The notes under the pieces were generated by a model that ran no database searches, was not told the DNA's origin, and worked only from the letters and a program-made list of their open reading frames with translations. Below, one piece after another: positions 5,479 to 60,092 of a DNA stretch of 64,000 bases. Numbering within the stretch: position 1 is the stretch's first letter; every line of letters begins with the position of its first letter. Origin of the DNA: Thraustochytrium sp. TN22 (lineage: Eukaryota > Sar > Bigyra > Thraustochytrida > Thraustochytriidae); assembly GCA_013306675.1 (NCBI GenBank), contig JABLUY010000085.1:2435-66434 (forward strand). Reading direction: 5' to 3'. The position numbers were made by a program, and so were the translations under genes.

Positions 5479-7929
5479 TTAGAGAGAGTTGGCCGGGTAG
5501 GCCTCCTTGCTGCCGCGGCCACCGGCGGAGTAGGAGTGCTCGGAAGCGGTGTTGACGCCAGCCTCGGTGCCGCGCGTGGCGAAGCTGCTGACGAAGACGT
5601 CCATATCGAGCTTGAAGTGGGCGGCGTAGACGCGCGAGCCGACAACGAGCAGGGAGGCGAAGACGGTGCCGAAGCAGACACAGGAGGCAACGAAGAGCGA
5701 CTTGGTGGTGGGCGAGAGGCCGTCGACGATGAGGATGAAGAGCGAAAAGGCGGTGACAAGTGCCGTGGTATACGAGGTCCAGAGCATGAGCGAAGCCTCA
5801 CGGAAGATGAGGCCACGGTAGCCGCGCGTCTGAAGGGCGAGGCCACAGGAAACGACGAGCATGAGGTAGCCCATGGCAATGTAAAAGGCGAGCAGGATGT
5901 CGTTGCTGGGGCAAACCTGCTCGGTGATGCCATATTCGGAGGTCTCATCGAGGACAGTGACGGGTTCGAAGCCGTTGACGAGGTACCAGACGAGGAGCCA
6001 GAGGGCGCAAAAGGCGGAAATCGCGGCGACCTCATAGCGCAGCAAAAAGGTGGCCCGGGCGGTGGCGCGCGTGTCGAGCATGTACTTGGCCTGCATGAGG
6101 CGGACGATGACCCACTGCTTGATCGCGAGCGCGAGCGAGAAGTAGAAGAAGCCGAAGAGCAGGAGCGTGAAGCGCATGCCGCACTTGACGGCGGTGGGCT
6201 CGCCAATCTCGAAGAGAATGGAGCAGTTCATGAGGACGCCACCGACGAGAAGCACACAGAGCGTCTTGGCGCGCGCCGTCTTGACGGCCGGGTGCTTGCG
6301 GTAGAAGACGGCACCAGCACCGCAGAGGATCAAAATAACGGAGGCGGCGATGGCGAGCGCCGTGAAGACGTAGCGTTCTTTGCTGTGCTCCGGAACGTAG
6401 GAGCAGTAGAGCGTCTCGACGACCTCGGTGGGGAATTCCCTGGTGGTCCACATGGTGGAGTAGACCGAGACGCCCTGGTTGTCGCACGGGTCATCGTCGG
6501 CATCGATGGAAACCGTGCCGTTGTTGAGGTAGAGCGACTCGTTGTAGAGGGCAACAACTTCGCGGTTGCCGTTCGAGTCGCAGTCGCAGGCAAAGATGGA
6601 GGGCTCGAGCTCCTCGTCGAGCCACATCTCGTCCTCGAATTGCGCCGCAACGGTGCTGAGCCAGGGCTTCCAGGTGCCGTTGTTCGCCTTGAGCCAGTCG
6701 CAGGTGACGTCCATGAGAAGCTCGGTGTCGACGTCCTCAAGCAGCTGCGCGAGCATCTCCTCCTGCTGGCTGTTGCTGCTGTAGCTGAGCGCGCGGACGA
6801 GGAGCGCGACGTCCGGCTTGGAGTTCTCGAGGCTGGCGCTGTAGGCCTTGGCCAGGGATTCGGAAGGATAGCCGCAGGTGGCGAGCGTCGAGTTGTCGTC
6901 GACGTCGTCCTGGCACTCGGGCGTGCTGACAGGGAGGAGGGCGATGGTGAGGTTGACCTTTTGGAAGATGCCGTGCGGCTTCCACATGTAGGCCATGAGA
7001 GGCTCGCGCTCGCTCTCGTCGGAGGAGGCCGCCTTGAGCAGCGCGGCGATGGAGTTGGCCTCGGAGCCCGAATACTCAATGGTCATGTCGAGCCCGAGGC
7101 CCTCGATGATCTGGTCGTCGTGCTGCGACCAGTGCTCAATGCCGGCCAGGAAGCGGCCGCCGGTACGCGGGATGGACTGCGTGGCGGGATCAAGGCATTC
7201 CGCCGCGGTGGCCAGGCCGCCGTCGGCTACTTTGGTGCCGCCGCGCGCCTCGTCGGCCATGCAGGGCAGCATGTCCTCCGGCTGGCTGTCGGCAATGTTG
7301 GCGACGCAGCACGGCGCGGACCCAGCCACTTGGAACGTGCTCATGACAGAGGGATCCAGCCAGCTGCGCCAGTACTCCAGGTCCGGGTCTGCGTCCACGA
7401 GGTAGGTGGGCATGAACCAGCCGATGCGGCCCTCGAGACCGATGGTGCCCGCCGTCACCACCGTGCTCTTGGCGACGGTGTAGGCGGAGATGTGCGAGCG
7501 GTGGCCGGACGGCCAGTACTCGAGCAGCGCGTCTAGCGCGCCCGAGTCCAGCTTGCGGAAGCCGTCCGGCGTGACGACGTTGCCCTCGTCGTCGAGCTCG
7601 TCCTGCTCCACCTCCGTGCCGGAGAAGGCGCCGGATGGGTCGGCGGTGATGGCCACGGGAAAGCCCAGCATCTCCTCAATGAGGATTTTGGCCACGTACA
7701 CGTTCACGAAGCTGCCCATCCAGCTCGAGACGCCCAGCTTGACCGCGCACGAATCATCCGTCTCGGGGTCGCACCTGAAGCCGCCGGTCGGCCTGCCGAA
7801 GCAGCAGTTCGCCTCGTCCGTCAGGCACGAGTCCTGCAGCGGCGAGTCCCTGCCCTGCGCTGCTGCCAGCACCACTGCGAGCACCAGCACCACGGCCGAC
7901 GCCGCCAGGCGCCTCACCGAGGCCGCCAT
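5479..7929 (-). CDS. OpuAC-ectodomain seven-transmembrane receptor, copy 1 (most diverged)
   Basis: 816 residues. Residues 1-24 form a signal peptide. A Cys-rich start (SPLQDSCLTDEANCCF) is followed by a two-lobed ectodomain (about 50-450) with hallmarks of OpuAC/ProX substrate-binding proteins: KLGVSSWMGSFVN, YWPSGH, GRIGWFMP, and a late AYMWKPHG that matches the OpuAC W-x-P-H element. A disulfide-rich neck leads to seven hydrophobic helices (about 520-765) of the class C GPCR (7tm_3) type, including KTLCVLLVGG, a Cys in KCGMRFTLLLFG and a Lys in ALAIKQW. The tail is short, about 50 residues. In bacteria OpuAC binds glycine betaine, choline or proline betaine for ABC importers. Here it takes the place of the usual Venus-flytrap, so a sensor for betaine-like osmolytes at the plasma membrane is inferred. 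It is opposite in strand to its four paralogues. Confidence 0.85.
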   Translation of the reverse strand: MAASVRRLAASAVVLVLAVVLAAAQGRDSPLQDSCLTDEANCCFGRPTGGFRCDPETDDSCAVKLGVSSWMGSFVNVYVAKILIEEMLGFPVAITADPSGAFSGTEVEQDELDDEGNVVTPDGFRKLDSGALDALLEYWPSGHRSHISAYTVAKSTVVTAGTIGLEGRIGWFMPTYLVDADPDLEYWRSWLDPSVMSTFQVAGSAPCCVANIADSQPEDMLPCMADEARGGTKVADGGLATAAECLDPATQSIPRTGGRFLAGIEHWSQHDDQIIEGLGLDMTIEYSGSEANSIAALLKAASSDESEREPLMAYMWKPHGIFQKVNLTIALLPVSTPECQDDVDDNSTLATCGYPSESLAKAYSASLENSKPDVALLVRALSYSSNSQQEEMLAQLLEDVDTELLMDVTCDWLKANNGTWKPWLSTVAAQFEDEMWLDEELEPSIFACDCDSNGNREVVALYNESLYLNNGTVSIDADDDPCDNQGVSVYSTMWTTREFPTEVVETLYCSYVPEHSKERYVFTALAIAASVILILCGAGAVFYRKHPAVKTARAKTLCVLLVGGVLMNCSILFEIGEPTAVKCGMRFTLLLFGFFYFSLALAIKQWVIVRLMQAKYMLDTRATARATFLLRYEVAAISAFCALWLLVWYLVNGFEPVTVLDETSEYGITEQVCPSNDILLAFYIAMGYLMLVVSCGLALQTRGYRGLIFREASLMLWTSYTTALVTAFSLFILIVDGLSPTTKSLFVASCVCFGTVFASLLVVGSRVYAAHFKLDMDVFVSSFATRGTEAGVNTASEHSYSAGGRGSKEAYPANSL

Positions 7930-7954
7930 TCTCGCGCGCGACCTAGCACGGGGG

Positions 7955-7990
7955 TCAAGTCGCGTCGAGTCGCGTCGAGTCGAGTCGCGT
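7955..7990. repeat. Pentanucleotide microsatellite (GTCGC/GTCGA)
   Basis: About seven 5-bp units alternating between GTCGC and GTCGA. They start 26 bp upstream of the ATG of receptor copy 1, in its probable leader or core promoter. Confidence 0.75.
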
Positions 7991-9505
7991 CTGAGCTAGC
8001 CGGGCTAGCTGAGCTAGCGCCTCGCCTCGCCTCGCCTCGCCTTCGCGTTTCGGGCTTGCTCGCCCGCCGCCCCCGCGCCTTGTCTGCGCCTTGCTGCAGC
8101 GGCCCTGTGCAGCTCGCAGGAAGAAGGCGCTCTGATCCACGCGAGCGCGGGAGGTGGTCCGCTCGCGCGCGTGCCGCCCACAGCGCGCCCACACGCGCCG
8201 CTCCGGCCGCGCCGCCGCGCCGCGCTCGCTCGCTCGCTCAAGCTCAAGCTCAAGCTCGGGCTCAGGCTCGCGCTCGGGCTGGCGGCGCCGTCCGAGCCTG
8301 CGGCAGCTCGACGTCTGCGCTGCGCGCGAGCTCGTGGCGCCTCGGGGTCGTGGCGCCTGGCTGGAGGCCGTCCGACAAGCCGTGCAGCGCAGTCACTGCA
8401 GTGCAGTGCAGGAAGGCAAGCAGGTCTCGGCGTCGGGAGGCGCCGGCCGCGTGTCCTGCCCGTGCAGGCGCAGCGCAGCGAGGGCGTGCCGCAAGGCGGG
8501 GAGAAGGAGGAGGCGCCGCACGAGGCCGACTGCCAACTCACCGTCAGGCTGCGCCTGCCCGGACTCTGGACTGATCGAGCGCGCGGATCAAGAACTACTC
8601 CTCACCGCCAGGAGCAGGGCGGAGAGGAGGCCGCGCGACGCAAGCCTGGCGCCGACGGAGTGGCTGGCTCGCGGCGTACGCTGGGCTGGCAGTGCAGTTC
8701 TGGCGGTTCTGGCGGTTCTGGCGACGCGATGGTCGCCCCCTGCAGAGCTGAAAGAAAGCACTGCACCGCAGTGTCTGCGACTCTGCGGTGCGGGGCTCGA
8801 AGCGCGCATCGATCGGCTTTAGCTAGCTAGCTAGAGCTAGGAACGAGCAAGATCGAGCACGCGCGCACAACACGCACGCGCGCGCGGCGGACGTGCAGCC
8901 AAGCCGCCTTGCGCGGCAGCGGCAGCACCGCTCAGCACGTCCACCCCCACGCGGCAGGCCGTTCCTGCGATAGCTGGGCCTGCAACGCAAGCGCAAGCAA
9001 GCTAGTAGCCTCTGGCGAGAGTGCCTCTCCTCTACAAGAGCAAAGCAAAGCGTTGGTCGGTCCAGGCCAGCCAGGCCGCACTGGCCATCAACCAGGCCGC
9101 GCAACCCGGCCGGCGCTCAAGGCCGCGCCCGCCGTGGCAGCGCAGCGAGTGATGCGCCCGCCAGCTGGCGGCCCGACGGCCGTCGCTCCGATCGGAGCCT
9201 GAGACCCGCGAGACCCGCTTGACCCGCGAGAGGCGGGGGCCGCAAGTGCAGGCGCGAGCCGCAATATCCATGAATCGCCTCGCCTCTTCATTTGGCCGCT
9301 GGCGAACGAGAAACACAGCCGCGCGCGCGGGCGCGCGGCGCCGCGTCGAGCGCCCTCTGCCAGCCATCCCCAGCCAGAAAGAAGTTATCGCCGTGGCGAC
9401 TCGGCTCGACAGAACACCTTGTTCTTGGCTGCGAGGTGGAGTCGTCTGATTGTCGTCGAGTCGCAGTCCATTTAGCTCCTGTCACTAGCCGGCGCCGCCG
9501 CCGCC

Positions 9506-9530
9506 GCATGCGCATGCGCATGCGCATGCG
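9506..9530. repeat. GCATGC tandem repeat (alternating purine-pyrimidine)
   Basis: Four units of the hexamer GCATGC (overlapping GCGCAT) make a 25-bp alternating purine-pyrimidine run. It contains the palindrome TGCGCATGCGCA, the form of the NRF1 site in animals and a possible Z-DNA former. Any function here is unknown. Confidence 0.6.
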
Positions 9531-11467
9531 AGCGAACGAGCTGCAACGCTGCGCGGGCAGCGGCGGCGCTGCTGCGCGGCGCTGCGTGCGTGCGTCGCCG
9601 CCGAGACGAGACACGGCGGCCGAGTTGCGCGCGGCGGCCGAGCGCCGCGCAATGACACGCATGCGCCGCTCGCTTCCCGCCTCGGGGCACCAGCCGGATC
9701 AGCTTGGAACCCACAGTAGCTGCTGGAAGCGCCGTCTCCGATCTCGGCCGCCAGCCTGCCGCGCCGGTGGCGACAGGCGTGGGAAAAACTTGCTTGTTAC
9801 CTTCACCGTTTGCACGCGCAGGCGCGCAGCCAGCCACCATCATGTCATCAGGAAGAAGAAGAAACACAGGCAGGCCAGGCCTGGCAGGCAGCTGAGCAGG
9901 CCATTCCTGAAGTCGCGCACGGCGAGCGGGGCCGCGGAGCACGACTCGGACGGAGGTGCCCGGACTCGAGAGAGGCCGAGGGCGCGAGCGCGCGGAGCGA
10001 GCAGGTGGGCGTCCGGCGAGCACGCGAGCGAGCAAGCGAGCAGCCGACCGAAGCTGGCCGCGGCGGACAAGCGCTCGTGGAGGGAGTGGCTGCGTTGTCT
10101 CCGAGCAGCGCGAGCAGATCATGGCATGTCCGTGACCAGAGCACGCCGCTGCGAGCAACGCCACGCCACGACGACTTCTGCGCGTTGGCTGCGCCGAGCG
10201 GCGAGAGGACCCACCCGGACGGGCTCCGCCACGCTCAGCCTGGCGTCAGGCTGTCAGCCACGCTGCGCGTGGGAGGGCCGCCCGTCATGATGACGCCAAG
10301 ACGCCTGCCGCCGTGCCGCGGCCTGCCGTGCCGCCGCAGTGGCGCGGCCTGATCTGCGACAACAGAGACGCGCGGGCCGCGGCTGCGCTGGCACTGGCAG
10401 GACAGCGCCGCGCTGCGCTTTGGTCGCCGCCGGGCCCAGCTTCGGGACTTGGCTCCCGCGGGGGTCGCCACGCGGCCCGCCCCCGGCCAGCGCGGCGGGC
10501 TGCGCCGGCTGCGCGCTGCAGCTGCTGCAGCGTTAGCCCTGGTTCTCTCGCAGGCCTGGCATAGCGGCCGTCGTGGTGGCTCCGGAGGGCGGGAGGAGGC
10601 CGAGGCCGGTGCCTGCGGCACGCTGCGAGCTCAGCACTGCAGGCTGCTCGCGAGCGTCTTTTCGTTCCTGACGAGCTGAGGACGGCTCGGGTAGGCTTGG
10701 CGGGCGCCGCTCAGCTCCCACGCGCGTCGGGCGGCTGGCTGGCCGGCTGGCTGGCTTAGCCTGGCCCTGGCTGGCCCGGGCACTGGCAGGATGGCGTGTG
10801 CCAGCCAGTGCTTTGGATGACTTGGCCTGCTATTGCGCACTGTGTGCAGGCAGTGAGAGAGGAGCGAGCCGCGATTAACCATGGCAACAAGACTTGGAAT
10901 GCCGCGCTCGCTTCCTTCTCTGTCAGGTTGGCGGCCGCCGTTGACCTTGGCCGTGAGTGCCGGGACTTGCAGTGCTGGCGGGTGTCAGTGGCAGGTTGTA
11001 CAGCTGCCGCAGCAAATAACGTGGCGAGCCGTAGAGCAGCAGCAGCAGAGCTGCCAGCGCAACCAAGTTGCATCCCGCGCGCGCGGTATGTCCCGTGAGT
11101 CGACCGTGTGACGCGGCGGTAATTAGTTAGTAACGGCCCGGTTCCGAGTCGTAGGATAGGACGGCCCGGCCAGGCCGAGCTAACGAACCGGTGCGCCTTC
11201 GGCGAGGCATCGGAGCGCCGTTGCACGGAGCGCAGATCACGTCACCGCTCGTTCAAACGTTGTCTGTCATGCTGCCATGTGCAAGATTGGCGCAAGACCC
11301 TTGTACCACGTGACAGTGAGTCAAACCGCAGCAGCCGCGTTTTTGCTGGCGTGACACGTGCAAGCTAGCTAGCTAGCTAGCGTATCCGTTGGAGACATGC
11401 CGGGTGTGCGCAGCGCATGACCGGCATGACCGTGTATCATGAACACTTGTGGCCGGCAGGCTCCGGG

Positions 11468-11547
11468 ACAGCAGGGCCACATTGATAGCGGCAATGTTGA
11501 GCAGGACACAGCAGGGCCACAACGATAGCGGCAATGTTGAGCAGGAC
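11468..11547 (+). repeat. 40-bp tandem duplication spanning the start codon of receptor 2
   Basis: Two 40-bp direct copies (11468-11507 and 11508-11547) differ at only a few bases. Each carries the segment GGCAATGTTGAGCAGGAC. The downstream copy supplies the true start (11534). The upstream copy gives an identical ATG at 11494 that is out of frame because 40 is not a multiple of three. Confidence 0.9.
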
Positions 11548-13918
11548 TGCCGCAGCGCTTCTCGTTGTTGCGCTCGCGTGCGGCGGGGCGACAGGTCTGC
11601 GCACGGACCCGTTGCAGGACTCGTGCGCGCGCGACGCGGCCAATTGCTGCTTCAGCGAGGACATCTGGCCCCGCTCCTCTGGAGAACGCTTTCGGTGCGA
11701 GCCGGACGAGACTGGCAACTACCCATGCAGCGTCAAAATTGGTGTCTGCTCATGGGCGGGATCCTTCGTCAATGCCTACGTGGTTAAAATCCTCATCGAG
11801 GAGTACCTCGGTTACCCGGTTGAGATCGTGGGTGATTTTAGCGACAACACAGGCATTGAACCGAACCAGCACACCGTGGACGACGAGGGCAACATCGTGT
11901 CGCCCAGCCTGTGGGACAACCTCGTCTCAGGCGTCTCCGATATCAACACGGAATTCTGGCCTTCGGGGCACGCGGACAATGTGCGCAAGTACATCCTGGA
12001 GGACGGCGACGTGGTCAGCGCAGGCGCCATTGGTCTCGAAGGCCGCATAGGCTGGTTTATGCCCTCCTCCGTGCTCGAGGCCGACCAGTCGCTCGAATAC
12101 TGGCGCACCCTGCTTGAGCCAGGCAAGGCGGAGCTCTTCAAGAATGTAAATGCGGAGATCCCTTGCTGCCAGGCCAACCCCGACTCGCAGAGTGCCGATA
12201 AGCTCCCCTGCATGGCGGCCGAGTCGCTGGGTGGCACTCCGGCCGCGTATGGTGGCCTCGCCACGCCCGACCTCTGCACCTCCGGCGCACAGCAAGACGT
12301 TGCCACGTACGGCGGCCGCTTCTTGGCCGGCTCGAGCACTTGGTCAGCCCACGACAAGCAGATCATCCGCAACCTCGAGCTCAATCTCACCGTCGAATAC
12401 GCCGTCTCAGAAGCCAAGATCATCAGCGAATTCCTCGACACAGAGACATCCGGGAACCCATTCATCGGCTACTTTTGGGCCCCCCACGGCCTCTTTCAGC
12501 TCATGAACCTGACCGAAGTCATGCTGCCCAAGCAGACCACCGAGTGCGTTGCCAAGATCGCCACGGGCGACGCCGACTGCGGTTATGCCACAGATGTCCT
12601 CACGGCCGTCTATTCTGCCGTCCTGCAGGAGGCCAAACCGGACGTTGCGCTCTTCATGGACGCCTTCAAGTACCGCTCCAATGATCAGCAGGAGGAGATG
12701 CTGCTCATGCAGATGCTCAACGCATCGCGCACCTTCAACGAGATCGCCTGCACCTGGCTCAAGGACAACCAAGACACCTACACAGACTGGACAACTGTCG
12801 TGAACCGCCAGTTCATGGACACCACATGGCGCGGCGAGACTCCCACCGCCACGGTCACGGCTTGCGAATGCGCCCTGGACGGCACGCGCGAGGTCGTGGC
12901 TCTCTTTGATGAGGGCTCTTCCGTCTACACGGCCTCCGGCCAGGTCTCCTTCGAGGTCGACCCCGACCCGTGCACCTCCGCGCGCAACGCGTCCATCTAC
13001 CACACTCGCTGGGCGAGCAAGGCGCTCGAGACCACCGTGGTCAAGACCATTGCGTGCGCCTACGTGCCCCTGGGTAGCCCCGAGCAGGGCTTCATCATCG
13101 CCATCGCCTGCATTGCTGTGGGCCTCCAGCTGGTCTGCGTTGGGGCACTGCTGCGCTTCCGCCGGCATCACGTCATCAAGACAGCCCGCATCAAGACGCT
13201 CTCGCTCCTGCTGATGGGCGCGGCGCTCATGAATACGGCCACTGTCTTCGAGATCGGCCAGCCGACGGCGCCCAAGTGCGCGCTGCGCTTCGCCTCCCTC
13301 CTCTTCGGCTTCGCCTTCTTCGTCGGCAGCCTCCTGCTCAAGCAGCTCACCATCACTGCGCTCATGCGCGCCAAGTACAAGCTTGACAAGCGTGGAGCGC
13401 AGCGCGCCACGCTCTTCATGCGCTTCGAGTTCATCTGCTGTAGCCTTGCGGCCGGCGCCTGCTTCGCGCTCTGGGCCGGCGTGGTGGGCTTCGAGCCTCT
13501 GCATGTGGAAGCTGATGTGGCCACCGGCGTCGAGGAGCTCGTGTGCCCGTCCGACACCACTCTACTCATGCTCATCATTGCCATCTGCTTCATGGCCATC
13601 CTCGTCTCGTGCGTCCTGGCGAACCAGACCAAGGGCTTCAAGGGTCTAATCTTCGGCGAGGCGCGCATCATGCTCGTGTCCAACTACAACGTGGCGCTTC
13701 TGAGCGCCTTTTCTCTCTTCGTCGTGCTCACGGACGGCACCAAGCCGACGCTCAAGGCCCTATTTGTCGCCACTGCCGTAGCCTTTTGCACCACCTTCTG
13801 CTCCATCATGGTGGTTGGCTCCCGCGCCTACGCTGCCTACCGGGACATGAAGACAGGAACCATCAGCGCGTCACGCGACTTGGCTTCCAGCGTCCCGACC
13901 ACCGTCCCAGAGACATGA
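11534..13918 (+). CDS. OpuAC-ectodomain seven-transmembrane receptor, copy 2
   Basis: 794 residues. The signal peptide is 1-21 (ends GGATG), then LRTDPLQDSCARDAANCCF opens the mature protein as in copies 3-5. The OpuAC-like lobes include VKIGVCSWAGSFVNAY (about 68-83), FWPSGH (about 143), GRIGWFMP (about 171) and YFWAPHGLF (about 315). The segment TWLKDNQDTYTDW matches the OpuAC C-terminal helix ending in W. A Cys-containing neck precedes the 7TM core (about 518-768) with KTLSLLLMGAALMN, KCALRFASLLFGF and LLLKQLTI. The tail is Ser/Thr-rich and short. The start was chosen because it gives the signal peptide; an identical upstream ATG is out of frame. The ectodomain resembles copy 4 most, yet parts of the core and the LLMQMLNASRTFNEIACTW block are almost the same DNA as copies 3 and 4. 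Confidence 0.87.
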   Translation: MLSRTAAALLVVALACGGATGLRTDPLQDSCARDAANCCFSEDIWPRSSGERFRCEPDETGNYPCSVKIGVCSWAGSFVNAYVVKILIEEYLGYPVEIVGDFSDNTGIEPNQHTVDDEGNIVSPSLWDNLVSGVSDINTEFWPSGHADNVRKYILEDGDVVSAGAIGLEGRIGWFMPSSVLEADQSLEYWRTLLEPGKAELFKNVNAEIPCCQANPDSQSADKLPCMAAESLGGTPAAYGGLATPDLCTSGAQQDVATYGGRFLAGSSTWSAHDKQIIRNLELNLTVEYAVSEAKIISEFLDTETSGNPFIGYFWAPHGLFQLMNLTEVMLPKQTTECVAKIATGDADCGYATDVLTAVYSAVLQEAKPDVALFMDAFKYRSNDQQEEMLLMQMLNASRTFNEIACTWLKDNQDTYTDWTTVVNRQFMDTTWRGETPTATVTACECALDGTREVVALFDEGSSVYTASGQVSFEVDPDPCTSARNASIYHTRWASKALETTVVKTIACAYVPLGSPEQGFIIAIACIAVGLQLVCVGALLRFRRHHVIKTARIKTLSLLLMGAALMNTATVFEIGQPTAPKCALRFASLLFGFAFFVGSLLLKQLTITALMRAKYKLDKRGAQRATLFMRFEFICCSLAAGACFALWAGVVGFEPLHVEADVATGVEELVCPSDTTLLMLIIAICFMAILVSCVLANQTKGFKGLIFGEARIMLVSNYNVALLSAFSLFVVLTDGTKPTLKALFVATAVAFCTTFCSIMVVGSRAYAAYRDMKTGTISASRDLASSVPTTVPET

Positions 13919-15084: not shown

Positions 15085-17496
15085 ATGGCGCTCATCATGC
15101 ATAAGCTGTTCGTCCTCCTGGCGCTGGTGCCCTGGGCCACCGCCGTACGCACGGACCCTCTCCAGGACTCGTGCGCACGTGACGCAGCCAACTGCTGCTT
15201 CAGCGAGGACACGTGGCCACGCCACACAAGTCGCCGGTTCCGCTGCGAACCGGACGACGATGGCAGCTACCCATGCAGTGTCAAAATCGCAATTTGCTCG
15301 TGGGCAGGCTCCTTCGTCAATGCCTACGTGGTGAAGATCCTCATCGAGGAGTACCTAGGCTACCCAGTAGAGATCAGGGCCGACTTCAGCGACTTTACGG
15401 GCCTCTCGTCCGAGAAGGGCTTCACGGACGCCGATGGCGTGGTGACGCCAAGCTACTGGGACGAGCTCGTTTCGGGCATCTCCGACATCAACACGGAAGT
15501 CTGGCCCTCAGGTGCGTCAGAAAAGGTGCGCAAGTACATCCTGGAGGACAGCAACGTCATTAGTGCTGGCGGTAATGGCCTTGAGGGCCGCATTGGTTGG
15601 TTCATGCCCTCTTCCGCTCTCCGAGCGGATCCATCGCTCGAGTACTGGCGCACCTTGCTCGAGCCGGGCAAAGCGGAGCTCTTTGAAAATCCACAGGTCG
15701 AGATTCCGTGCTGCCAGAGCGCCGCTGACGCGCAAAGCATCGACAAGCTACCCTGCATGGCGGCCGAGTCGCTGGGCGGCACCCCGGCCGCCAACGGCGG
15801 CCTCGCCACGCCCGACCTCTGCGTTGCGGGCGCGCAGCAAAATGTCTCCACCTACGGAGGGCGCTTTCTGACCGGCTCGAGTAGTTGGGGTGCTCACGAC
15901 GACCAAATCATCCGCAACCTCGATCTAAACTTCACCGTTGAGTACGCTGTCTACGAAAGCAAGCTCATCGGCGAGCTCGTCAACGCTGACACGTCCGGAG
16001 AGCCGCTCATCGCCTACTTCTGGGCGCCTCACGGACTCTTCCAGCTCATGAACCTGACCGAGGTCATCCTGCCCAAGCAAACCACCGAGTGCGCCGCCAA
16101 GATCGCCACGGGTGACGCCGATTGCGGCTACGCTGCCGAGTTCCTCATATCCATATATTCGACAAGTCTTCAGGAGGCCAAGCCGGATGTTGCGCTCTTT
16201 ATGGACGCCTTTGCGTATCGGTCCAACGATCAGCAGGAGGAGATGCTGCTCATGCAGATGCTCAACGCATCGCGCACCTTCAACGAGATCGCCTGCACCT
16301 GGCTCAAGGACAATCAAGACACCTACACAGACTGGACGGAGGTCGTAGACCGCCAGTTCGAGGACACCACGTGGCGCGGCGAGTCGCTCACCACCACGAG
16401 TATGGCCTGCGAGTGCGCACTGGACGGCACGCGCGAGGTCGTGGCGCTCTACGACGAGAGCTCGTCCGTCTACACGGCCTCGGGCCTGGTCACCTTCGAG
16501 GTCGACCCGAATCCGTGCACAACCGCGCGCAACGCGTCCATCTACCACACTCGCTGGGCGAGCCACGCGCTCGAGACCACTGTGATCAAGACCATCGCGT
16601 GCGCCTACGTACCTGAGGGCAGCCTTGAGCAGGTTGCCATCACCGTCATCGCCTCCATCGCCCTGGGCGTCCTGCTGATCTGCTTTGCGGCACTGCTGCG
16701 CTTCCGCAAGCACCAGGTCGTTCGAACTGCCCGCATCAAGACGCTCACGCTCCTGCTGGGGGGCGCGGCGCTCATGAATGCGGCCTCCGTCTTCGAGATC
16801 GGCCAGCCGACCGCGCCCAAGTGCGCGCTGCGCTTCGCCTCCCTCCTCTTCGGCTTCGCCTTCTTCGTCGGCAGCCTCCTGCTCAAGCAGCTCACCATCA
16901 CTGCGCTCATGCGCGCCAAGTACAAGCTTGACAAGCGTGGAGCGCAGCGCGCCACGCTCTTCATGCGCTTCGAGTTCATCTGCTGTAGCCTCGCGGCTGG
17001 CGCCTGCTTCGCGCTCTGGGCCGGCGTGGTGGGCTTCGAGCCTCTGCACGTGGAGGCCGACGCGACTACCGGCGTCCAGGAGCTCGTGTGTCCGTCCGAC
17101 ACCACTCTACTCATGCTCATCATTGCCATCTGCTTCATGGCCATCCTCGTCTCGTGCGTCCTGGCGAACCAGACCAAGGGCTTCAAGGGTCTAGTCTTTG
17201 GCGAGGCGCGCATCATGCTGGTGTCCAACTACAACGTGGCGCTCCTGAGCGCCTTTTCCCTCTTTGTCGTGCTCACGGATGGCACCAAGCCGACGCTCAA
17301 GGCTCTCTTTGTGGCCTTTGCTGTGGCCTTTTGCACCATATTTTGCTCCATCATGGTGGTTGGCTCCCGCGTCTACGCTGCGCACCGCGGCATGAAGGTT
17401 GGGACGGTCAACACCAGGACGGCCACGTCGAACCCCAGCATCCCGACGTCCAACTTCACGGAGTCCAAGCCACCCGCAGGATTGCAAGTCCGTTAA
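15085..17496 (+). CDS. OpuAC-ectodomain seven-transmembrane receptor, copy 3
   Basis: 803 residues. The signal peptide is about 1-20 (LFVLLALVPWATA), followed by VRTDPLQDSCARDAANCCF. OpuAC-like lobes occupy about 60-430 and the 7TM core about 515-765. It diverges from copies 2 and 4 in one ligand-lobe stretch (FTGLSSEKGFTDADGVV, then WPSGASEKVRKYI in place of WPSGHADNVRKYI), which may alter ligand choice. From 17101 to about 17370 its DNA differs from copy 4 at only two positions, both silent, although the flanking intergenic sequences are unrelated. The C-terminal tail (VNTRTATSNPSIPTSNFTES) is specific to this copy. An ATG at 15097 would be an alternative start inside the signal peptide. 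Confidence 0.87.
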   Translation: MALIMHKLFVLLALVPWATAVRTDPLQDSCARDAANCCFSEDTWPRHTSRRFRCEPDDDGSYPCSVKIAICSWAGSFVNAYVVKILIEEYLGYPVEIRADFSDFTGLSSEKGFTDADGVVTPSYWDELVSGISDINTEVWPSGASEKVRKYILEDSNVISAGGNGLEGRIGWFMPSSALRADPSLEYWRTLLEPGKAELFENPQVEIPCCQSAADAQSIDKLPCMAAESLGGTPAANGGLATPDLCVAGAQQNVSTYGGRFLTGSSSWGAHDDQIIRNLDLNFTVEYAVYESKLIGELVNADTSGEPLIAYFWAPHGLFQLMNLTEVILPKQTTECAAKIATGDADCGYAAEFLISIYSTSLQEAKPDVALFMDAFAYRSNDQQEEMLLMQMLNASRTFNEIACTWLKDNQDTYTDWTEVVDRQFEDTTWRGESLTTTSMACECALDGTREVVALYDESSSVYTASGLVTFEVDPNPCTTARNASIYHTRWASHALETTVIKTIACAYVPEGSLEQVAITVIASIALGVLLICFAALLRFRKHQVVRTARIKTLTLLLGGAALMNAASVFEIGQPTAPKCALRFASLLFGFAFFVGSLLLKQLTITALMRAKYKLDKRGAQRATLFMRFEFICCSLAAGACFALWAGVVGFEPLHVEADATTGVQELVCPSDTTLLMLIIAICFMAILVSCVLANQTKGFKGLVFGEARIMLVSNYNVALLSAFSLFVVLTDGTKPTLKALFVAFAVAFCTIFCSIMVVGSRVYAAHRGMKVGTVNTRTATSNPSIPTSNFTESKPPAGLQVR

Positions 17497-19070
17497 CGAA
17501 CGTACCATGGTACCATACCACCAAAAAGAAAAGACAAAATTGAGAGTCACGACCAACCCACATGGCTTCGGAGGCACGAGGCGAAGTTGAACAGCAGGGA
17601 GAGGATGAATGAGCAACCCGCACATTCGAGAGCAGTTTCTTTTCTTTCCTCTTTTTTTTCGGTCATGCAGTGGTGCGAGCTGGCCGGTGAGACGCCAGCT
17701 TGTGGCTGCACAAGAGCCCCCCCCCCCCTAACCCCGATGACCCGACCGGCGACTGCTTCGCTCGGCGGTCCTTGCTTGCGGACGAATGGTGTGAGCCTGA
17801 GCGAACTTCATCCTGAGCGAACTTCATCAAGGGCTCGGAAGCTGACCCGTCCCTGGAGTCCGAGTCCGCCGAGTCCGGGTCCGGACCCACGGTCCCACGC
17901 GTATGCCATCATGCCACCATGCCACACCGTGACCGCAGTGCAGGCTTCTCCCATATCCGCCGCCACCCAGTGTCGTCAAATTCGTGTCCCATGTCAAGCC
18001 TCCAAGGCAATGCCGCAATGGACAATGGGCGTTCCTTCTTCAACCTTCTGAGCAGTGCGCCGCCCGGCCCGCTGCGACGGCGATTCTCTAGCTAGTAGGT
18101 AGCTAGGGAGGTAGGTAGCTACTAGCGCGGCTCCGAGCTTTCGATCTTCCGATCAAGCAACGGCCAGCCTGGGGAGCTAGCTGGCAGTTGCTGTGCTGCA
18201 GTGTGCTACACTGGCAGTCCGTACCCCCGCGGACCATTTTCAAGCCTCGATCCAACCTGCTGGCCGCCGCGCCGCGCGTTCCGCAGCTTTGTCGACGTCA
18301 AACGAGGAGCCACATGGCGAAAGTGGGGCTCAGGCGCTTACCAGTTTTCGCGACGAAACGAACCGAAGCAGACCCAACCGACATGGGGCTCGCAGGCTCC
18401 CTTCCCTCTCTGTCGGTTCCTCGCATCAGCGGCACTCCTGCAAACGGCGCAACGGCGTCGACTGAGCCTGTCGGCAGTAGCAACGCATCTACCAGCTGCG
18501 GCGACGGTGACGGACGGTCCACCTGCAGAACGAAAGCGAACCAGCTTTCGGCCTCCGCAGAAAACCGCCACCACGTCCTCGCGCTTCGAATGTGAGGCGC
18601 AGCGCAATGCGGTCTGTCGCTACCCAGGGCGGATGGCAATGGCACGATGCGGCTTGACCCTGCTCAGGCTAGCTGGATTCACATCAGCCAGCCTGGACGA
18701 GCAGTCTTCTCATCATCCGTTTTCCTGGAAGGAAGCGGTGCTCGAAGCCGCGTCGCCATCTTGTTCAAAGTGAAAGAACGAATCAGGAAGAGAAAGGACA
18801 GGACGCGAAGACTGAGGACTGGCTCGACCCGTGCGGAAAAAAAAGAACTCTCGGCGTTAGGACTTTTTCCGATGCTTGCATCCCACCCGAACGGCTTCAA
18901 GCTTCTGCGGCTGAGCTCCGGTCGACCTCCCTTGAAGGAGACAAGACCAGACATGTCGTACGTATCTGCGCGACCCGCCACCGCGTGGAGGCTCGCTTTG
19001 CACGCTTCTTAGGTAGCGAGTGAGGCAGGCAGAATCGCAAACCTGCTTGACGCTTGTCGCTGGTCAAGAA
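17497..19070. other. Intergenic between receptors 3 and 4
   Basis: No supportable gene. It holds a GTACCATGGTAC palindrome (17502-17513), a C10-type homopolymer near 17710 and a CTAG/GTAG-rich palindromic run at 18090-18125. Confidence 0.5.
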
Positions 19071-21500
19071 ATGTTACTCGCCATGTACAAGGTGCTTGCC
19101 TTTCTGGCCCTTGTGCACATGGCCAGGGCCGTGCGTACGGACCCTCTCGAGGACTCGTGCGCCCGCGACGCGGCCAACTGCTGCTTCGGCGAGGACATGT
19201 GGCCTCGCCACGCGAGCAGCCGCTTCCGCTGCGAGCCAGATGAGGACGGTAGGTACCCGTGCAGCGTCAAGGTCGGTGTCTGCTCCTGGGCAGGCTCCTT
19301 CGTCAACGCCTACGTGATCAAGATCCTCATCGAAGAGTACCTCGGCTACCCAGTGGAGATCGTGGCCGATTTCAGCGACAGCACAGGCATTGAACCAAAC
19401 CAGCATACCGTGGACGATGAGGGCAATATTGTGACGCCCAGCATGTGGGACAACCTCGCCTCTGGCGTCTCCGACATTAACACTGAATTCTGGCCGTCGG
19501 GCCATGCGGACAATGTGCGCAAGTACATCCTGGAAGACGGCGATGTGGTCAGTGCCGGTGCTATTGGCCTCGAGGGCCGCATCGGCTGGTTTATGCCCTC
19601 ATATGTGCTCGAGGCAGATCCGGCGCTCGAGTACTGGCGCACCTTGCTCGACACAAGCAAAGTCGAGCTCTTCCAGAATCCAAAGACCGAGATTCCATGC
19701 TGCCAGAGTGACGCCGACTCGCAAACCATCGACAAGCTCCCCTGCATGTCGGCCGAGTCGCTGGGCGGCGCCCCGGCCGCTCACGGCGGTCTCGCCACTC
19801 CGGACCTCTGCGTTGTAGGCGCGCAACAGAATGTCTCCACCTACGGCGGTCGCTTCCTGGCTGGCTCGAGCACATGGTCCGCCCACGACGAGCAGATCGT
19901 CCGCAATCTTGGGCTAAACCTTACCATCGAGTATGCAGTGTACGAGAGTAAGATCATCAGTGAGCTCATGGACGCCGACGCGTCTCGAAACCCGCTCATC
20001 GCCTACTTCTGGGCGCCTCACGGGCTCTTCCAGCTCATGAACCTGACCGAGGTCATGTTGCCCAAGCAGTCCACAGAATGCATCGCCAAAATCGCCACGG
20101 GGGACGCAGACTGCGGCTACGCCACCGACGTCCTCACGGCTGTCTACTCGGCGGCCATGCGTGAGGCCAAGCCTGACGTTGCGCTCTTCATGGACGCCTT
20201 TGCGTATCGGTCCAACGATCAGCAGGAGGAGATGCTGCTCATGCAGATGCTCAACGCATCGCGCACCTTCAACGAGATCGCCTGCACCTGGCTCAAGGAC
20301 AATCAAGACACCTTCACAGACTGGACCACAGTCGTAGACCGCCAGTTTGGGGACGCCACGTGGCGTGGCGAGACGCTCACTGCCACGGTCATGGCCTGCG
20401 AGTGCGCCCTCGACGGCACGCGCGAGGTCGTGGCTCTCTACGACCAGAGCTCGTCCATCTACACAGCCTCTGGCCAGGTCACCTTCGAGGTCGACCCGGA
20501 CCCGTGCACAAGCGCGCGCAACGCGTCCATCTACCACACTCGCTGGGCGAGCCATGCGCTCGAGACCACTGTGATCAAGACCATCGCGTGCGCCTACGTG
20601 CCCGAGGGCAGCCCTGAAGAGGTCGCCATCGTCGCCATCGCCTGCGTCGCGGTCGCCACTCTCCTGCTTTGCGTCGGCGCGTTGCTGCGATTCCGCAAGC
20701 ACCAGGTAGTTCGAACGGCCCGCCTCAAGACGCTCTCGCTCCTGCTGCTGGGCGCGGCGCTTATGAACGCGACCTCCGTCTTCGAGATCGGCCAGCCGAG
20801 CGCGCCCAAGTGCGCGCTGCGCTTCGCCTCGCTCCTCTTCGGCTTCGCCTTCTTCGTCGGCAGCCTCCTGCTCAAGCAGCTCACCATCACTGCGCTCATG
20901 CGCGCCAAGTACAAGCTTGACAAGCGCAGAACGCAGCGCGCCACGCTCTTCATGCGCTTCGAGTTCATCTGCTGTAGCCTTGCGGCCGGCGCCTGCTTCG
21001 CGCTCTGGGCCGGCGTGGTGGGCTTCGAGCCTCTGCACGTGGAGGTCGACGCGACGACCGGCGTCCAGGAGCTCGTGTGTCCGTCCGACACCACTCTACT
21101 CATGCTCATCATTGCCATCTGCTTCATGGCCATCCTCGTCTCGTGCGTCCTGGCGAACCAAACCAAGGGCTTCAAGGGTCTAGTCTTTGGCGAGGCGCGC
21201 ATCATGCTGGTGTCCAACTACAACGTGGCGCTCCTGAGCGCCTTTTCCCTCTTTGTCGTGCTCACGGATGGCACCAAGCCGACGCTCAAGGCTCTCTTTG
21301 TGGCCTTTGCTGTGGCCTTTTGCACCATATTTTGCTCCATCATGGTGGTCGGCTCCCGCGTTTATGCCGCCTTTTACGACATGAAGGCAACCAGGAGTGG
21401 AACCAAGGTGTCTGCATCCACCAGGGTCGGTGGCATGACGACAAATCCGCTCAACTCCAGCGCCATCACCTCATCTCTGCAGAATGGGAGCGAGCGATAA
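19071..21500 (+). CDS. OpuAC-ectodomain seven-transmembrane receptor, copy 4
   Basis: 809 residues from the ATG at 19071, chosen because it gives a clean signal peptide (MLLAMYKVLAFLALVHMARA) directly before VRTDPLEDSCARDAANCCF. An in-frame ATG at 19020 would add 17 polar residues in front. The ligand lobe around FSDSTGIEPNQHTVDDEGN is nearly that of copy 2, whereas the last transmembrane helices are nearly those of copy 3, so the gene is a mosaic of its neighbours. The 7TM core is about 516-766. The tail carries basic and Ser/Thr-rich sequence (TRSGTKVSASTRVGG) not shared with the others. It shows the same OpuAC landmarks: FWPSGH, GRIGWFMP and YFWAPHGLF. Confidence 0.87.
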   Translation: MLLAMYKVLAFLALVHMARAVRTDPLEDSCARDAANCCFGEDMWPRHASSRFRCEPDEDGRYPCSVKVGVCSWAGSFVNAYVIKILIEEYLGYPVEIVADFSDSTGIEPNQHTVDDEGNIVTPSMWDNLASGVSDINTEFWPSGHADNVRKYILEDGDVVSAGAIGLEGRIGWFMPSYVLEADPALEYWRTLLDTSKVELFQNPKTEIPCCQSDADSQTIDKLPCMSAESLGGAPAAHGGLATPDLCVVGAQQNVSTYGGRFLAGSSTWSAHDEQIVRNLGLNLTIEYAVYESKIISELMDADASRNPLIAYFWAPHGLFQLMNLTEVMLPKQSTECIAKIATGDADCGYATDVLTAVYSAAMREAKPDVALFMDAFAYRSNDQQEEMLLMQMLNASRTFNEIACTWLKDNQDTFTDWTTVVDRQFGDATWRGETLTATVMACECALDGTREVVALYDQSSSIYTASGQVTFEVDPDPCTSARNASIYHTRWASHALETTVIKTIACAYVPEGSPEEVAIVAIACVAVATLLLCVGALLRFRKHQVVRTARLKTLSLLLLGAALMNATSVFEIGQPSAPKCALRFASLLFGFAFFVGSLLLKQLTITALMRAKYKLDKRRTQRATLFMRFEFICCSLAAGACFALWAGVVGFEPLHVEVDATTGVQELVCPSDTTLLMLIIAICFMAILVSCVLANQTKGFKGLVFGEARIMLVSNYNVALLSAFSLFVVLTDGTKPTLKALFVAFAVAFCTIFCSIMVVGSRVYAAFYDMKATRSGTKVSASTRVGGMTTNPLNSSAITSSLQNGSER

Positions 21501-22334
21501 CAGGAAATAATCAGAACGCCGCACTGGCCGCAATGCAGTGAAAACATGTTCTCCTCGTGACGTCTTCCTCTTCCTCCTTCCCCAGGGGCGGCGCCGCACG
21601 CAATAGGTATAGGCCTTTTCAATCATTCTGTACACGAGACGCCTGCTTCCCGCATAGTTAACGGCCAAGTGCGCCGGCATTGTTGTACACTAAGTAGCCT
21701 AAGTTAGGCCTAGTAGAAAGGCCGGCCTGTGGCGACGCGGCCGTTAAATTTGCGGGAACCACCGGCGGGCGTCTCCCGTACAGAATCGTTGAAAAGGCCT
21801 ATACCTGTCGCGTACCCGGGCCTGGCCGCCGGGGCCCGGCCCGGCGGCCGTGACGGCGCGCCGCCCTTCCCTACACACCGGGTCAAGTCTTGGCACAGCC
21901 AAGCAAGGCACTGCATGCTGACGGCGAGTGCAGCCCATCCGCATCCCCCTCGTCGCGCTGCTCAAAGACCAGAGACACTCGCCCCCTGGCCGCCCGCTTG
22001 GGTCCGGGCAGTCCGGGCAACGGCTCACTTCCATGTGCGCAGGTTTCGTTCTTTCGTGATCACCATGGCGGTACCGGATCACGCGCGTCGACAAACAGCC
22101 ACGGCCAACGAGAGTTTCGAGAGCTCCAAGGGCAAAGAGCGCCATCCTAACTAGAGTAGTCAGGAAACGTTGCAGTTTGACGCCACAGGGGTCACAACGA
22201 GCGCCAACCTTCAAAAGAATCGACGATCGTACGCTGCACGGCAATACCTCTGAGCAGGTCGCTCGCTTCTGGCGCAGGACGCCGCTGCGAGCACGAGGCC
22301 ACCGCGAAGGCAGCAACGTTGTGCCCGCGTCTCG
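21501..22334. other. Intergenic between receptors 4 and 5
   Basis: Contains the foldback element at 21605-21806. The remainder has short open frames only and no recognisable product. Confidence 0.5.
21605..21806. mobile_element. MITE-like foldback element with long terminal inverted repeats
   Basis: The left arm 21605-21666 (starts AGGTATAGGCCTTTTCAA) and the right arm 21739-21806 (ends TTGAAAAGGCCTATACCT) are inverted copies along their whole length, with scattered mismatches and a small indel. They flank about 72 bp that itself contains small palindromes (CCTAAGTTAGG, AGGCCGGCCT). There is no coding capacity. I could not find a convincing target-site duplication, so classification as a non-autonomous DNA transposon is inference from structure. 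Confidence 0.65.
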
Positions 22335-24782
22335 ATGGTGCCGGTGCCGCTGCCGCCGCTGCTAGTCCTGCTATTGTTCCTCCTGCTCTTGGTTGGCAGC
22401 GAAGCGGTGCGGACGGACCCGCTGCAGGACTCGTGCGCGCGCGATGAGGCCAACTGCTGCTTCGACGAGGGCAAATGGTTGCGGCTGTCCGAGAGCCGCT
22501 TCCGATGCGAGCCGCTTGCCGACGGGAGTTACCCCTGCAGCATAAAAATCGGCGTCAACTCGTGGGTGGGCAGCTTTATCAATGCGATGGTGCTCAAGAT
22601 TTTTCTGGAGGAGTTTCTCGGGTACGTCGTTGAGATTGCGGCCGATGTTGAGGACTTCAGCGGGACTGAGGTTCAGCACGACGGTGTCGATGCGGACGGC
22701 GTGCAGCGCTCGTCCATGTGGGCGCGCATGGCATCTGGCGAAATTGACGCGGTGAGCGAGGTCTGGCCATCCGGCCACACCAGCAATTTGCGCGAGTACG
22801 TGCTGGAGCGCGGCGAGGTGGTGAATGCGGGCAACATCGGCTTGGATGGCCGCATCGGTTGGTTCATGCCGGCTTTCGTACTCGAGGACCATGATCCAGC
22901 CCTCGAGTATTGGCGCACGCTGCGGCTTGCCGACCCAGACCTCTTCGCGCCGACAAGAACCAGCCTCCCCTGCTGCGTCGGAGGCGCCACCGAGCAGCCG
23001 AAAGACAAGATTCCGTGCATGCCGCCGGAGTCATACGGCGGCACGCCCGTGGCCTACGGCGGCCTCACAGACTTCGCGGAGTGCAACGCCTCCGCGCCGC
23101 AAGAGATCCCTACGTATGGTGGCCGCTTTCTGGGCGGGTCCAGGGACTGGACCAGCCACGACGTGCAAATTATGCGGAACCTCGGCTTCAACTTTACCGT
23201 CGAATTCGGCCTCTTCGAGGAGGAGATTCTCGAGGAGATTGTCAAGGCGACGGCGACCAGAACCCCGCTTGTAACATACTTTTGGCGGCCCGCGCCCGTC
23301 GACCTTGTCAGCGTGATCCTTCCGGAAAGCTCTCCACAGTGCCGTGCCAAGATCGCGTCGGGCGAGGCAGATTGCGGCTACGTGACCGACTTGCCCATCA
23401 ACCTCTACGCCAGCCGGCTGCGCGAGGACAAACCGGACGCCGCGCTTTTCATGGATGCCTTCTCGTACACGTCCAACGAGCAGCAGGAGACCATGCTCAA
23501 GGCATGGCATGAAAACCGCACGCAGAGTTTCTCCGGCCTTGTGTGCGACTGGGTCAAGGCGAACGAGGCAACCTACGAATCGTGGACGGCGGTCGTCACG
23601 TCGCAGTTTGAAGGAAGCATCTGGGATCATGAGCAGCTCACGCCCACGCTGGTCGGCTGCTCCTGCTCCTCCGACGGCTCGCGGGATGTTGTGGCGCTCT
23701 ATGACAATCAATCCTCGGCCCACAGCTCTTCTGGTCAGGTCATCTTCGAAGAGGACCGCCATCCGTGCTCGAGCGAGCGGAACGTGTCTATCTACCGTAC
23801 GCGCTGGACGATGCGGACTCTCCCGACCACCGTGCTGAAGACCATCCCATGCGCCTACGTGCCGCCCGGCACTCCCATGCACGCTGGCATTATCGCCATC
23901 GCAGTTGTCGCCGGCCTCATTCTATGCTTCTGCCTCACCAGCCTCTACCTCTTCCGCATGCACCGAAGTGTACGCGCCGCGCGAGTCAAAACACTCACGC
24001 TCATGCTGGTTGGCGCTATTCTCATGAACACAACCACGCTCTTCAGCGTCGGCGAGCCCACCACGGCAAAATGCGCGCTCAGGGTCGCGACGCTGCTCTA
24101 CGGCTACTTTGGCTTCGTGGGTGGTCTCGCCATCAAGCAGGCCGTTATTTATGCGCTTATGCGGTCCAAGGGCACGGTCGGCAGGAGTCAGCAGACCCGG
24201 CGGGCAGGACTACTCTTGCGTTTTGAGGTCCTCATCTGCGTCGCCGCGGCGTCGACATGCTTTGCTGCCTGGGCCATTTTCGTTGGATTCCAACCCGAGC
24301 ACGTCGTCGCGGACTCCGCCACGGGCGTCCAAGAGCTCGTCTGCCCGTCCAGCACAACTCTGCTCATGCTCATTGTTGGTATCTGCGGCGTCGTTCTCAG
24401 CATTAGCTGCGTCCTTGCTAATGAGACTCGCGCGTTCTCCGGCCTTGTCTTCGCGCACGAGGGAAAGCACATGTTGTGGTCCAACAACAACCTCGCCATC
24501 CTCTCCGCGGCGTCCATCTTTATTGTCCTGCAGGACGGCGTGCACCCCATGCTCAAGGCGCTTTTCGTCGCGATCGCTATTTTTGGAGCCACCGTCACCA
24601 GCTGCTACCTGCTCGTAGTCTCACGCATCCAAAGCGCTATCGATAGGGTTGGTGAATCCAGCAGGAAAGCTGTCAACACCACCCCGATCACTGCCGTCCC
24701 GCGTGCCGTCGCTGCCACGATGTTTTCTACAGGTCGCGGGGCCAAGCGTAAGCCACCCTCCTCGCCCCAACACCATGGGTGA
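22335..24782 (+). CDS. OpuAC-ectodomain seven-transmembrane receptor, copy 5
   Basis: 815 residues. A very hydrophobic Leu-rich signal peptide (LLVLLLFLLLLVGSEA) precedes VRTDPLQDSCARDEANCCF. The ectodomain is clearly homologous but more diverged than copies 2-4. It shares FSGTEV with copy 1, carries GRIGWFMPAFVLEDHDP, and has a shortened W-x-P element (YFWRPAPVDLV) lacking the usual HGLFQLMN. The 7TM core is about 516-768 with KTLTLMLVGAILMN and KCALRVATLLYGYFG. The tail is basic and Pro/Thr-rich, ending GAKRKPPSSPQHHG. It shows no sign of recent homogenisation with copies 2-4 and is probably an older duplicate. The altered binding-lobe motif suggests a different ligand. Confidence 0.86.
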   Translation: MVPVPLPPLLVLLLFLLLLVGSEAVRTDPLQDSCARDEANCCFDEGKWLRLSESRFRCEPLADGSYPCSIKIGVNSWVGSFINAMVLKIFLEEFLGYVVEIAADVEDFSGTEVQHDGVDADGVQRSSMWARMASGEIDAVSEVWPSGHTSNLREYVLERGEVVNAGNIGLDGRIGWFMPAFVLEDHDPALEYWRTLRLADPDLFAPTRTSLPCCVGGATEQPKDKIPCMPPESYGGTPVAYGGLTDFAECNASAPQEIPTYGGRFLGGSRDWTSHDVQIMRNLGFNFTVEFGLFEEEILEEIVKATATRTPLVTYFWRPAPVDLVSVILPESSPQCRAKIASGEADCGYVTDLPINLYASRLREDKPDAALFMDAFSYTSNEQQETMLKAWHENRTQSFSGLVCDWVKANEATYESWTAVVTSQFEGSIWDHEQLTPTLVGCSCSSDGSRDVVALYDNQSSAHSSSGQVIFEEDRHPCSSERNVSIYRTRWTMRTLPTTVLKTIPCAYVPPGTPMHAGIIAIAVVAGLILCFCLTSLYLFRMHRSVRAARVKTLTLMLVGAILMNTTTLFSVGEPTTAKCALRVATLLYGYFGFVGGLAIKQAVIYALMRSKGTVGRSQQTRRAGLLLRFEVLICVAAASTCFAAWAIFVGFQPEHVVADSATGVQELVCPSSTTLLMLIVGICGVVLSISCVLANETRAFSGLVFAHEGKHMLWSNNNLAILSAASIFIVLQDGVHPMLKALFVAIAIFGATVTSCYLLVVSRIQSAIDRVGESSRKAVNTTPITAVPRAVAATMFSTGRGAKRKPPSSPQHHG

Positions 24783-58340: not shown

Positions 58341-60092
<1,752 letters not shown>

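Follow-up and report, generated by a model that had tools for sequence, protein, structure and literature searches.

Five clustered genes joining an OpuAC-type ectodomain to a class C receptor core in Thraustochytrium sp. TN22, with a predicted cage for onium solutes

A 64,000-nucleotide stretch of the thraustochytrid Thraustochytrium sp. TN22 (contig JABLUY010000085.1, positions 2,435 to 66,434 of the forward strand; the whole of this stretch is referred to as the window) carries, within 5479-24782, five intact single open frames of 794-826 codons each, as seen from the list of open reading frames and their translations; this is where the preliminary description of this DNA had placed five paralogues. 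Each joins an ectodomain of the OpuAC type to the seven-helix core of a class C G protein-coupled receptor (GPCR). The reading preferred here, to which a probability of about 0.62 is assigned, is that the proteins are plasma-membrane chemoreceptors, in which an OpuAC-type clamshell holds a zwitterionic onium compound in a cage of four tryptophans and the seven-helix core couples to a G protein. A small solute of this type, such as dimethylsulfoniopropionate (DMSP), glycine betaine or a close analogue, would enter the cleft, where the four-tryptophan cage would grip its onium group; the lobes would then close on the ligand, the closure would be passed through a cysteine-bearing linker, and the seven-helix core would couple to its G protein. 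The domain order in the five frames, the class C profile, the fold of one copy, the conservation of the cage and the homogenisation of helices 3-7 were all computed; the surface location and the ligand class we infer from these, and closure-driven activation, coupling and a sensory role would follow the general pattern of class C receptors and of binding proteins.

Copy 1 (5479..7929, minus strand, 816 residues, with a signal-like N-terminus, an OpuAC ectodomain and a class C core) is inverted and is separated by a 3.6-kb GC-rich spacer from copies 2-5, which lie head to tail on the plus strand: copy 2 at 11534..13918 (794 residues), copy 3 at 15085..17496 (803 residues), copy 4 at 19071..21500 from its first ATG, or 19020-21500 from a GTG (826 residues), and copy 5 at 22335..24782 (815 residues). 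The tandem expansion described previously thus holds for copies 2-5, the inverted and spacer-separated copy 1 making the array as a whole less than uniform. Identity to copy 2 is 46% for copy 1, 79% for copy 3, 82% for copy 4 and 51% for copy 5, and across all tblastn pairs it runs from about 41 to 86%. A tblastn search of the window with the five receptors (E up to 1e-3) found no sixth copy or fragment, and no receptor remnant was found in the spacer (7930-11533). The spacer itself has a GC content of 0.69 and holds 19 inverted-repeat pairs, perhaps through composition alone.

Some of the features first ascribed to every copy, or to four of them, proved to be more restricted. A hydrophobic N-terminus of the signal-peptide type exceeded the hydropathy threshold in four of the five copies; copy 4, read from the ATG at 19083, fell below it, and a start at the ATG at 19071 would, as the frame reads, prepend MLLA, the hydropathy value being that of the 19083 start only. 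The N-terminal motif RTDPLQDSC, attributed to four copies, is exact in copies 2, 3 and 5, with the variants RTDPLEDSC in copy 4 and RDSPLQDSC in copy 1, and FWAPHG and TWLKDN, attributed to all five, are exact in copies 2-4 only. The translation of copy 4 was taken from 19080, and residue positions in the pocket and core are given throughout in copy 2 numbering.

Both halves of the fusion were recognised by Pfam in all five copies. OpuAC (PF04069) was matched at E-values of 9.1e-12 to 6.7e-18 (45.6-65.7 bits against a curated cut-off of 21.2) and 7tm_3 (PF00003) at 1.6e-18 to 7.2e-22 (67.7-78.7 bits against a curated cut-off of 33.5); with both profiles above their curated cut-offs five times over, the earlier claim of an OpuAC-like ectodomain joined to a class C core is borne out. 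In copy 2 the OpuAC-type domain spans residues 67-430 (11732..12823; Pfam, with the fold taken from the copy 4 model) and contains two inserts that are absent from the two Nonomuraea rows of the alignment, one at about residues 104-125 and a cysteine-bearing one at about 203-259; it is followed by a linker (12824..13075) with cysteines C444, C446, C480 and C508, invariant in the five copies, and by the class C core at residues 519-758 (13088..13807). The cores of the other copies, also delimited by Pfam, lie at about 5653-6375 (copy 1, minus strand), 16633..17349 (copy 3), 20619..21338 (copy 4) and 23874..24611 (copy 5), and the OpuAC match of copy 5 covers residues 121-408 (22695..23558). Neither the ANF_receptor flytrap (PF01094) nor the cysteine-rich NCD3G domain (PF07562) was matched in any of the five copies in Pfam searches with E up to 1; NCD3G is also absent from GABA-B receptors. 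The contrast drawn earlier between a flytrap and an OpuAC domain needs rewording, since OpuAC too folds as a clamshell; what differs is the clan of binding proteins, ANF_receptor belonging to Pfam clan CL0144 and OpuAC to CL0177 according to the available text of PMC3251606.

The ectodomain of copy 4 was modelled with AlphaFold2 from an alignment with its four paralogues and with 58 of the 80 bacterial relatives fetched. The model has a mean predicted local distance difference test score (pLDDT) of 73.5 and a predicted template modelling score of 0.72, with 213 of its 491 residues at a pLDDT of at least 90; most of the binding-protein core lies at 80-97, and residues 82-92, much of 186-237 and the linker 408-491 lie below 50. 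In a Foldseek search this model ranked first the trimethylamine N-oxide (TMAO)-binding protein TmoX (E 8.1e-20, template modelling score by target 0.84) and next the DMSP-binding protein DmpX (E 5.9e-17, score 0.79), and ranks 1-12 were occupied by entries for TmoX, DmpX, ProX, OpuAC/OpuA and choline-binding proteins. No class C flytrap was present among the 50 matches listed of 495 (E up to 10). Since the neighbours are TmoX, DmpX, ProX and OpuAC and no class C flytrap is listed, the ectodomain is, on the evidence of the model, predicted to be a two-lobed clamshell of the OpuAC type; the structure prediction suggested in the preliminary description therefore returned, for copy 4, two lobes and a fold whose nearest neighbours bind TMAO, DMSP and betaines. 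Consistent with this, a profile of the five receptors searched against the PDB gave 4XZ6 (TmoX, E 1.6e-12) and 7YLE (DmpX, 6.4e-9) as the leading ectodomain matches.

The residues of the putative pocket were located by profile alignments and by a separate MAFFT alignment. The DMSP pocket of DmpX, given in the available text of PMC10030565 as W35, T64, W84, E113, W152, A153, Y200 and W202, maps to copy 2 residues 74, 123, 142, 172, 270, 271, 313 and 315. The TMAO pocket of TmoX, given in the available text of PMC8918994, comprises W55, W102, F106, E131, W177, F220 and W222, of which F106 maps to copy 2 position 146. The predicted cage residues of copy 2 are thus Trp74 (11753..11755; DmpX W35, TmoX W55), Trp142 (11957..11959; W84, W102), Trp270 (12341..12343; W152, W177) and, in the segment Tyr313-Phe-Trp315 (12470..12478), the counterparts of DmpX Y200 and W202 and of TmoX F220 and W222. 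All four tryptophans and Tyr313 are invariant in the five receptors, so the aromatic cage that was to be looked for is present by alignment, as a predicted aromatic box for an onium group. The preliminary description had laid stress on changes in copy 3 (at WPSGH) and copy 5 (in the W-P-H element); these leave the four cage tryptophans untouched. Variation between copies in the pocket is confined to three positions: 123, the carboxylate contact (DmpX T64), which in copies 1-5 is Thr, Ser, Thr, Thr and Arg; 146, which is His, His, Ala (WPSGA), His and His; and 271 (DmpX A153), which is Ser, Ser, Gly, Ser and Thr. Copy 5, which has the arginine at 123, also reads FWRPAP, with a four-residue deletion. 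The alignment suggests a constant onium cage with head-group contacts that differ from copy to copy.

This pattern was compared with 41 bacterial rows other than DmpX, made up of 15 fetched actinobacterial sequences, nine from plasmids, TmoX and 16 phylum controls (30 loci, of which the profile recovered 17, one of 63 residues being dropped). The four tryptophans together with the tyrosine occur in all five receptors, in the one DmpX and in none of these 41 rows; the four tryptophans without the tyrosine occur in six of the 41. Nine of the 16 phylum controls, with Phe or Met in place of Trp74, represent remoter OpuAC types, for which the alignment is uncertain.

It could be argued that the ectodomain serves for capture or as a scaffold, concentrating a solute or holding dimers together, and that the seven-helix core signals constitutively or in response to something else; the role of the linker and the coupling are predictions, and copy 5 is without part of the P-H loop. 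The pocket is, however, more invariant than the domain around it: six of the eight DmpX pocket positions are identical among the five receptors, against 119 of 364 positions domain-wide (hypergeometric P 0.017), and six of nine with the TmoX position added (P 0.037). Class C receptors, moreover, generally switch by closure of a clamshell, and a module of this passive kind is judged improbable.

As for the ligand, the residue at position 172 bears on the choice. According to the available text of PMC8918994, Glu131 of TmoX hydrogen-bonds the TMAO oxygen; this residue (E113 in DmpX) is isoleucine in all five receptors, which argues against TMAO as the ligand. At the carboxylate contact, threonine, serine or arginine would suit DMSP or glycine betaine. 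With the glutamate lost and this contact variable, a zwitterion resembling a betaine or DMSP fits the predicted pocket better than TMAO does. The earlier proposal of receptors for osmolytes of the betaine or DMSP type accordingly gains from the fold neighbours of the copy 4 model and from the aligned cage residues, its ligand class staying a prediction.

The seven-helix core is likewise recognisable beyond its Pfam match. The profile of the five receptors matched mGlu4 in the PDB over the core at 1e-8. Cysteines C582 and C671, aligned with the extracellular-loop cysteines of mGlu4 and predicted to form a disulfide, are invariant in all five copies, as are Lys603 in transmembrane helix 3 (TM3) and Glu709 in TM6; the second basic residue of TM3, an arginine in mGlu4, is not kept in the five copies. 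The roles of these class C marks are as given in the available text of PMC3727952. A full-length model of copy 2, built from five sequences, shows seven long helices at low confidence (mean pLDDT 38.6), and hydropathy peaks cover the same regions and overlap, giving no clean count of seven.

Several observations weigh against the preferred reading. The isoleucine at position 172 means that binding would be identical to neither DmpX nor TmoX, and DmpX was represented by a single sequence. In the core, the PK motif of TM7 is replaced by SR in all five copies (SRxY in four, SRxQ in copy 5), and the full-length model was too poor to be used in the fold search. The tree of OpuAC domains, whose bacterial rows comprised 15 of the 80 fetched loci and nine of 28 plasmid records (10 fetched), adds a further point. 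The receptors join the sampled actinobacterial OpuACs with a support of 94/86, below the level starred on the tree, on a long branch (1.36 changes per column), and the single DmpX row lies far from them; the nearest sampled rows, the 15 actinobacterial OpuACs, lack Trp270 in 15 of 15 cases and Trp315 in 14 of 15. Because DmpX is distant and these nearest rows are without the two tryptophans, the DmpX-like pattern was not passed down from any close relative in the sample, and the ligand need not be the same.

It is possible, though rather unlikely in our judgement, that the same receptor machinery has had its pocket retuned to a ligand other than an onium compound, such as an amino acid, an ergothioneine-like compound or another metabolite. 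The replacement of the DmpX/TmoX glutamate in all five copies, the Ser, Thr or Arg at position 123 and the long branch would agree with retuning, as would the ergothioneine-binding EgtU proteins that appear among the Foldseek neighbours from rank 13; against this, every copy retains the tyrosine as well as the four cage tryptophans, and the top fold ranks are held by proteins that bind TMAO, DMSP and betaines.

An actinobacterial donor is not claimed. The bacterial genomes were scanned with a single peptide pattern, which favours one clade (240 stretches, 224 confirmed, the best 80 kept), sampling was narrow and the tree support is 94/86; the best 80 of the 224 confirmed stretches are all actinobacterial by their record titles, and the plasmid match of lowest E-value is also actinobacterial (Nonomuraea, 24.6% identity, E 5e-17). 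Among viral contigs, 18 stretches matched a pattern for receptor relatives and none was confirmed, phage records gave no match, and scans of viral contigs with bacterial OpuAC queries, made to deepen the alignment, also found none. A plasmid OpuAC relative from Roseovarius (2408-3364 in its own locus) adjoins a choline dehydrogenase gene, which fits a choline or betaine importer.

Turning to the preferred chemoreceptor reading and the history of the array, the five ectodomains form one clade with a support of 100/99, branching in the order copy 1, copy 5, copy 4 and then copy 2 with copy 3; since they form one clade, the array most likely grew by local duplication. The later history of copies 2-4 appears to differ along the gene. 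At four-fold degenerate sites the ectodomains differ at 60 of 156 (pair 2-3), 63 of 164 (2-4) and 50 of 155 positions (3-4), that is 32-38%, whereas helices 3-7 (residues 579-765; 13268..13828 in copy 2) differ at only 11 of 108, 11 of 105 and 7 of 109, or 6-10% (Fisher P 2.2e-7 to 3.0e-7). Helices 3-7 are not simply slow to change, because pairs that include copy 5 or copy 1 (2-5, 3-5, 4-5, 1-2, 1-4 and 1-5) show no such drop (P 0.25-0.85). Furthermore, between copies 3 and 4 an unbroken series of 17 variable sites agrees over residues 706-755, a run seen in 0 of 2000 shuffles that mix sites across the whole gene; by the same test pair 2-4 is weak (p 0.016) and pair 2-3 is null (p 0.80). We read this as homogenisation of helices 3-7 of copies 2-4, probably through unequal exchange or gene conversion, with the sensor heads diverging meanwhile. 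The flanks of copies 2-5 showed no similarity beyond the overlap of neighbouring flanks and one palindrome.

The ratio of non-synonymous to synonymous rates (dN/dS) among copies 2-4 is 0.06-0.31 in the lobes and in helices 3-7, rising to 0.31-0.77 in TM1-2 and 0.50-1.39 in the signal peptide. The lobes are therefore under purifying selection and the sensor heads constrained; an adaptive diversification of the ligand range is possible. That the genes are instead a misassembled fusion or an array of decaying pseudogenes is scarcely credible: no point was found in its favour, and it would have to account for a fusion that lies inside one open frame in five diverged copies, for the low dN/dS, and for a contig that carries other eukaryotic genes of similar third-position GC (0.77-0.89 in the receptor frames, slightly below the 0.82-0.93 of neighbouring Pfam-matched frames).

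The architecture has a precedent. Six GPCRs of the glutamate family in the fungus Allomyces macrogynus (AMAG_01750, 04252, 14324, 14326, 15836 and 17562; PMC3251606) were described in 2012 as carrying OpuAC, so proteins with the same two Pfam families have been known since then; the likeness rests on the published description, the available text of which gives no ligand for them. From the close locus numbers 14324 and 14326 it is possible that these genes are clustered too. As far as literature searches reach, the five-gene array, the cage resembling those of DMSP and TMAO proteins with variable head-group positions, and the homogenised core are new.

Other known systems share parts of the arrangement. 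DmpX of marine bacteria (PDB 7YLE, PMC10030565, as available) resembles the receptors in its fold, its four-tryptophan cage and Tyr200, and its Thr64 is found in copies 1, 3 and 4; pocket identity is 6/8 in these three copies and 5/8 in copies 2 and 5. It differs in Glu113, which is Ile in the receptors, in Ala153 (Ser, Gly or Thr), in its distant place on the tree and in serving an ATP-binding cassette (ABC) importer, whereas the receptor domain is fused to a seven-helix core. TmoX (PDB 4XZ6, PMC8918994, as available) is the best fold and profile match and has the four-tryptophan box; the receptors have Ile for its Glu131, His or Ala for Phe106 and Tyr for Phe220. The mGlu and GABA-B receptors share the 7tm_3 core, the loop cysteines, the TM3 lysine and the TM6 glutamate, whereas the proteins described here have an OpuAC clamshell in place of ANF_receptor, no NCD3G match, and SR for PK. 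The Dictyostelium Grl receptors also join a class C core to a bacterial binding-protein ectodomain, in this case, according to the available text of PMC3251606, a BMP domain (13 members) of clan CL0144 rather than OpuAC of CL0177. Among the class C GPCR candidates of diatoms, which are microalgae, seven have N-termini of the periplasmic-binding type; in the available text of PMC3727952 these resemble class C ligand domains or components of sugar ABC systems, and OpuAC is unmentioned. Six binding-domain terms looked for in PMC12716839 do not occur there. Judged by their listing, none of the papers found that combine DMSP, G protein-coupled receptors and chemotaxis describes a DMSP-sensing GPCR.

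In the sea, DMSP, betaines and TMAO are abundant solutes that microbes are known to follow, and DMSP or glycine betaine in the surroundings may be among the compounds that this cell detects. The more specific proposal that at least one copy is a eukaryotic DMSP GPCR with an importer-like cage, its core kept uniform by conversion under diverging heads, is put forward as speculative and is probably not correct as it stands. The array supplies candidates that lie in single frames and could be expressed, their cage residues predicted and their head-group positions naturally varied. It suggests that a fusion known from one zoosporic fungus exists as a multi-gene family in a related organism or elsewhere, and it is a clear example of a homogenised receptor core under a diverging sensor.

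The genes recognised in the window, which is eukaryotic, run as long frames without interruption. The gene for the proteasome activator PSME4/PA200 (37930-43542) is one uninterrupted frame of 1871 codons, which points to a nuclear genome with few introns. The immediate neighbour of the receptor array is an adenosine deaminase-family gene (25436-26944; Pfam), followed by a gene whose product has UBM regions, which bind ubiquitin, and repeats of the VPPG-PGxxF type (27688-29946; Pfam and sequence); ATP synthase beta is at 58344-60092, and amine oxidase and eukaryotic-type carbonic anhydrase genes are among the others. Searched against the PDB, the ATP synthase beta scored best with the human chain 8h9e_E (789 bits), with bovine chains at 785, yeast chains at 749-765 and Toxoplasma chains at 764, scores that do not single out a host lineage. 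A frame of 1581 codons runs off the left edge (1-4743, minus strand), its sole match being to PqiA (E 8.2e-7, residues 1345-1423), a mainly bacterial family. Rfam gave no match at the gathering threshold. The palindrome noted in the flanks lies between copies 4 and 5 (21598-21813) and has no second copy in the window (E up to 1e-4); it is imperfect, with 49-nt arms 86% complementary and 23-nt inner arms 87% complementary, and as RNA it would fold at -130.2 kcal/mol (z -10.3), so that it is possibly a foldback element or a hairpin RNA.

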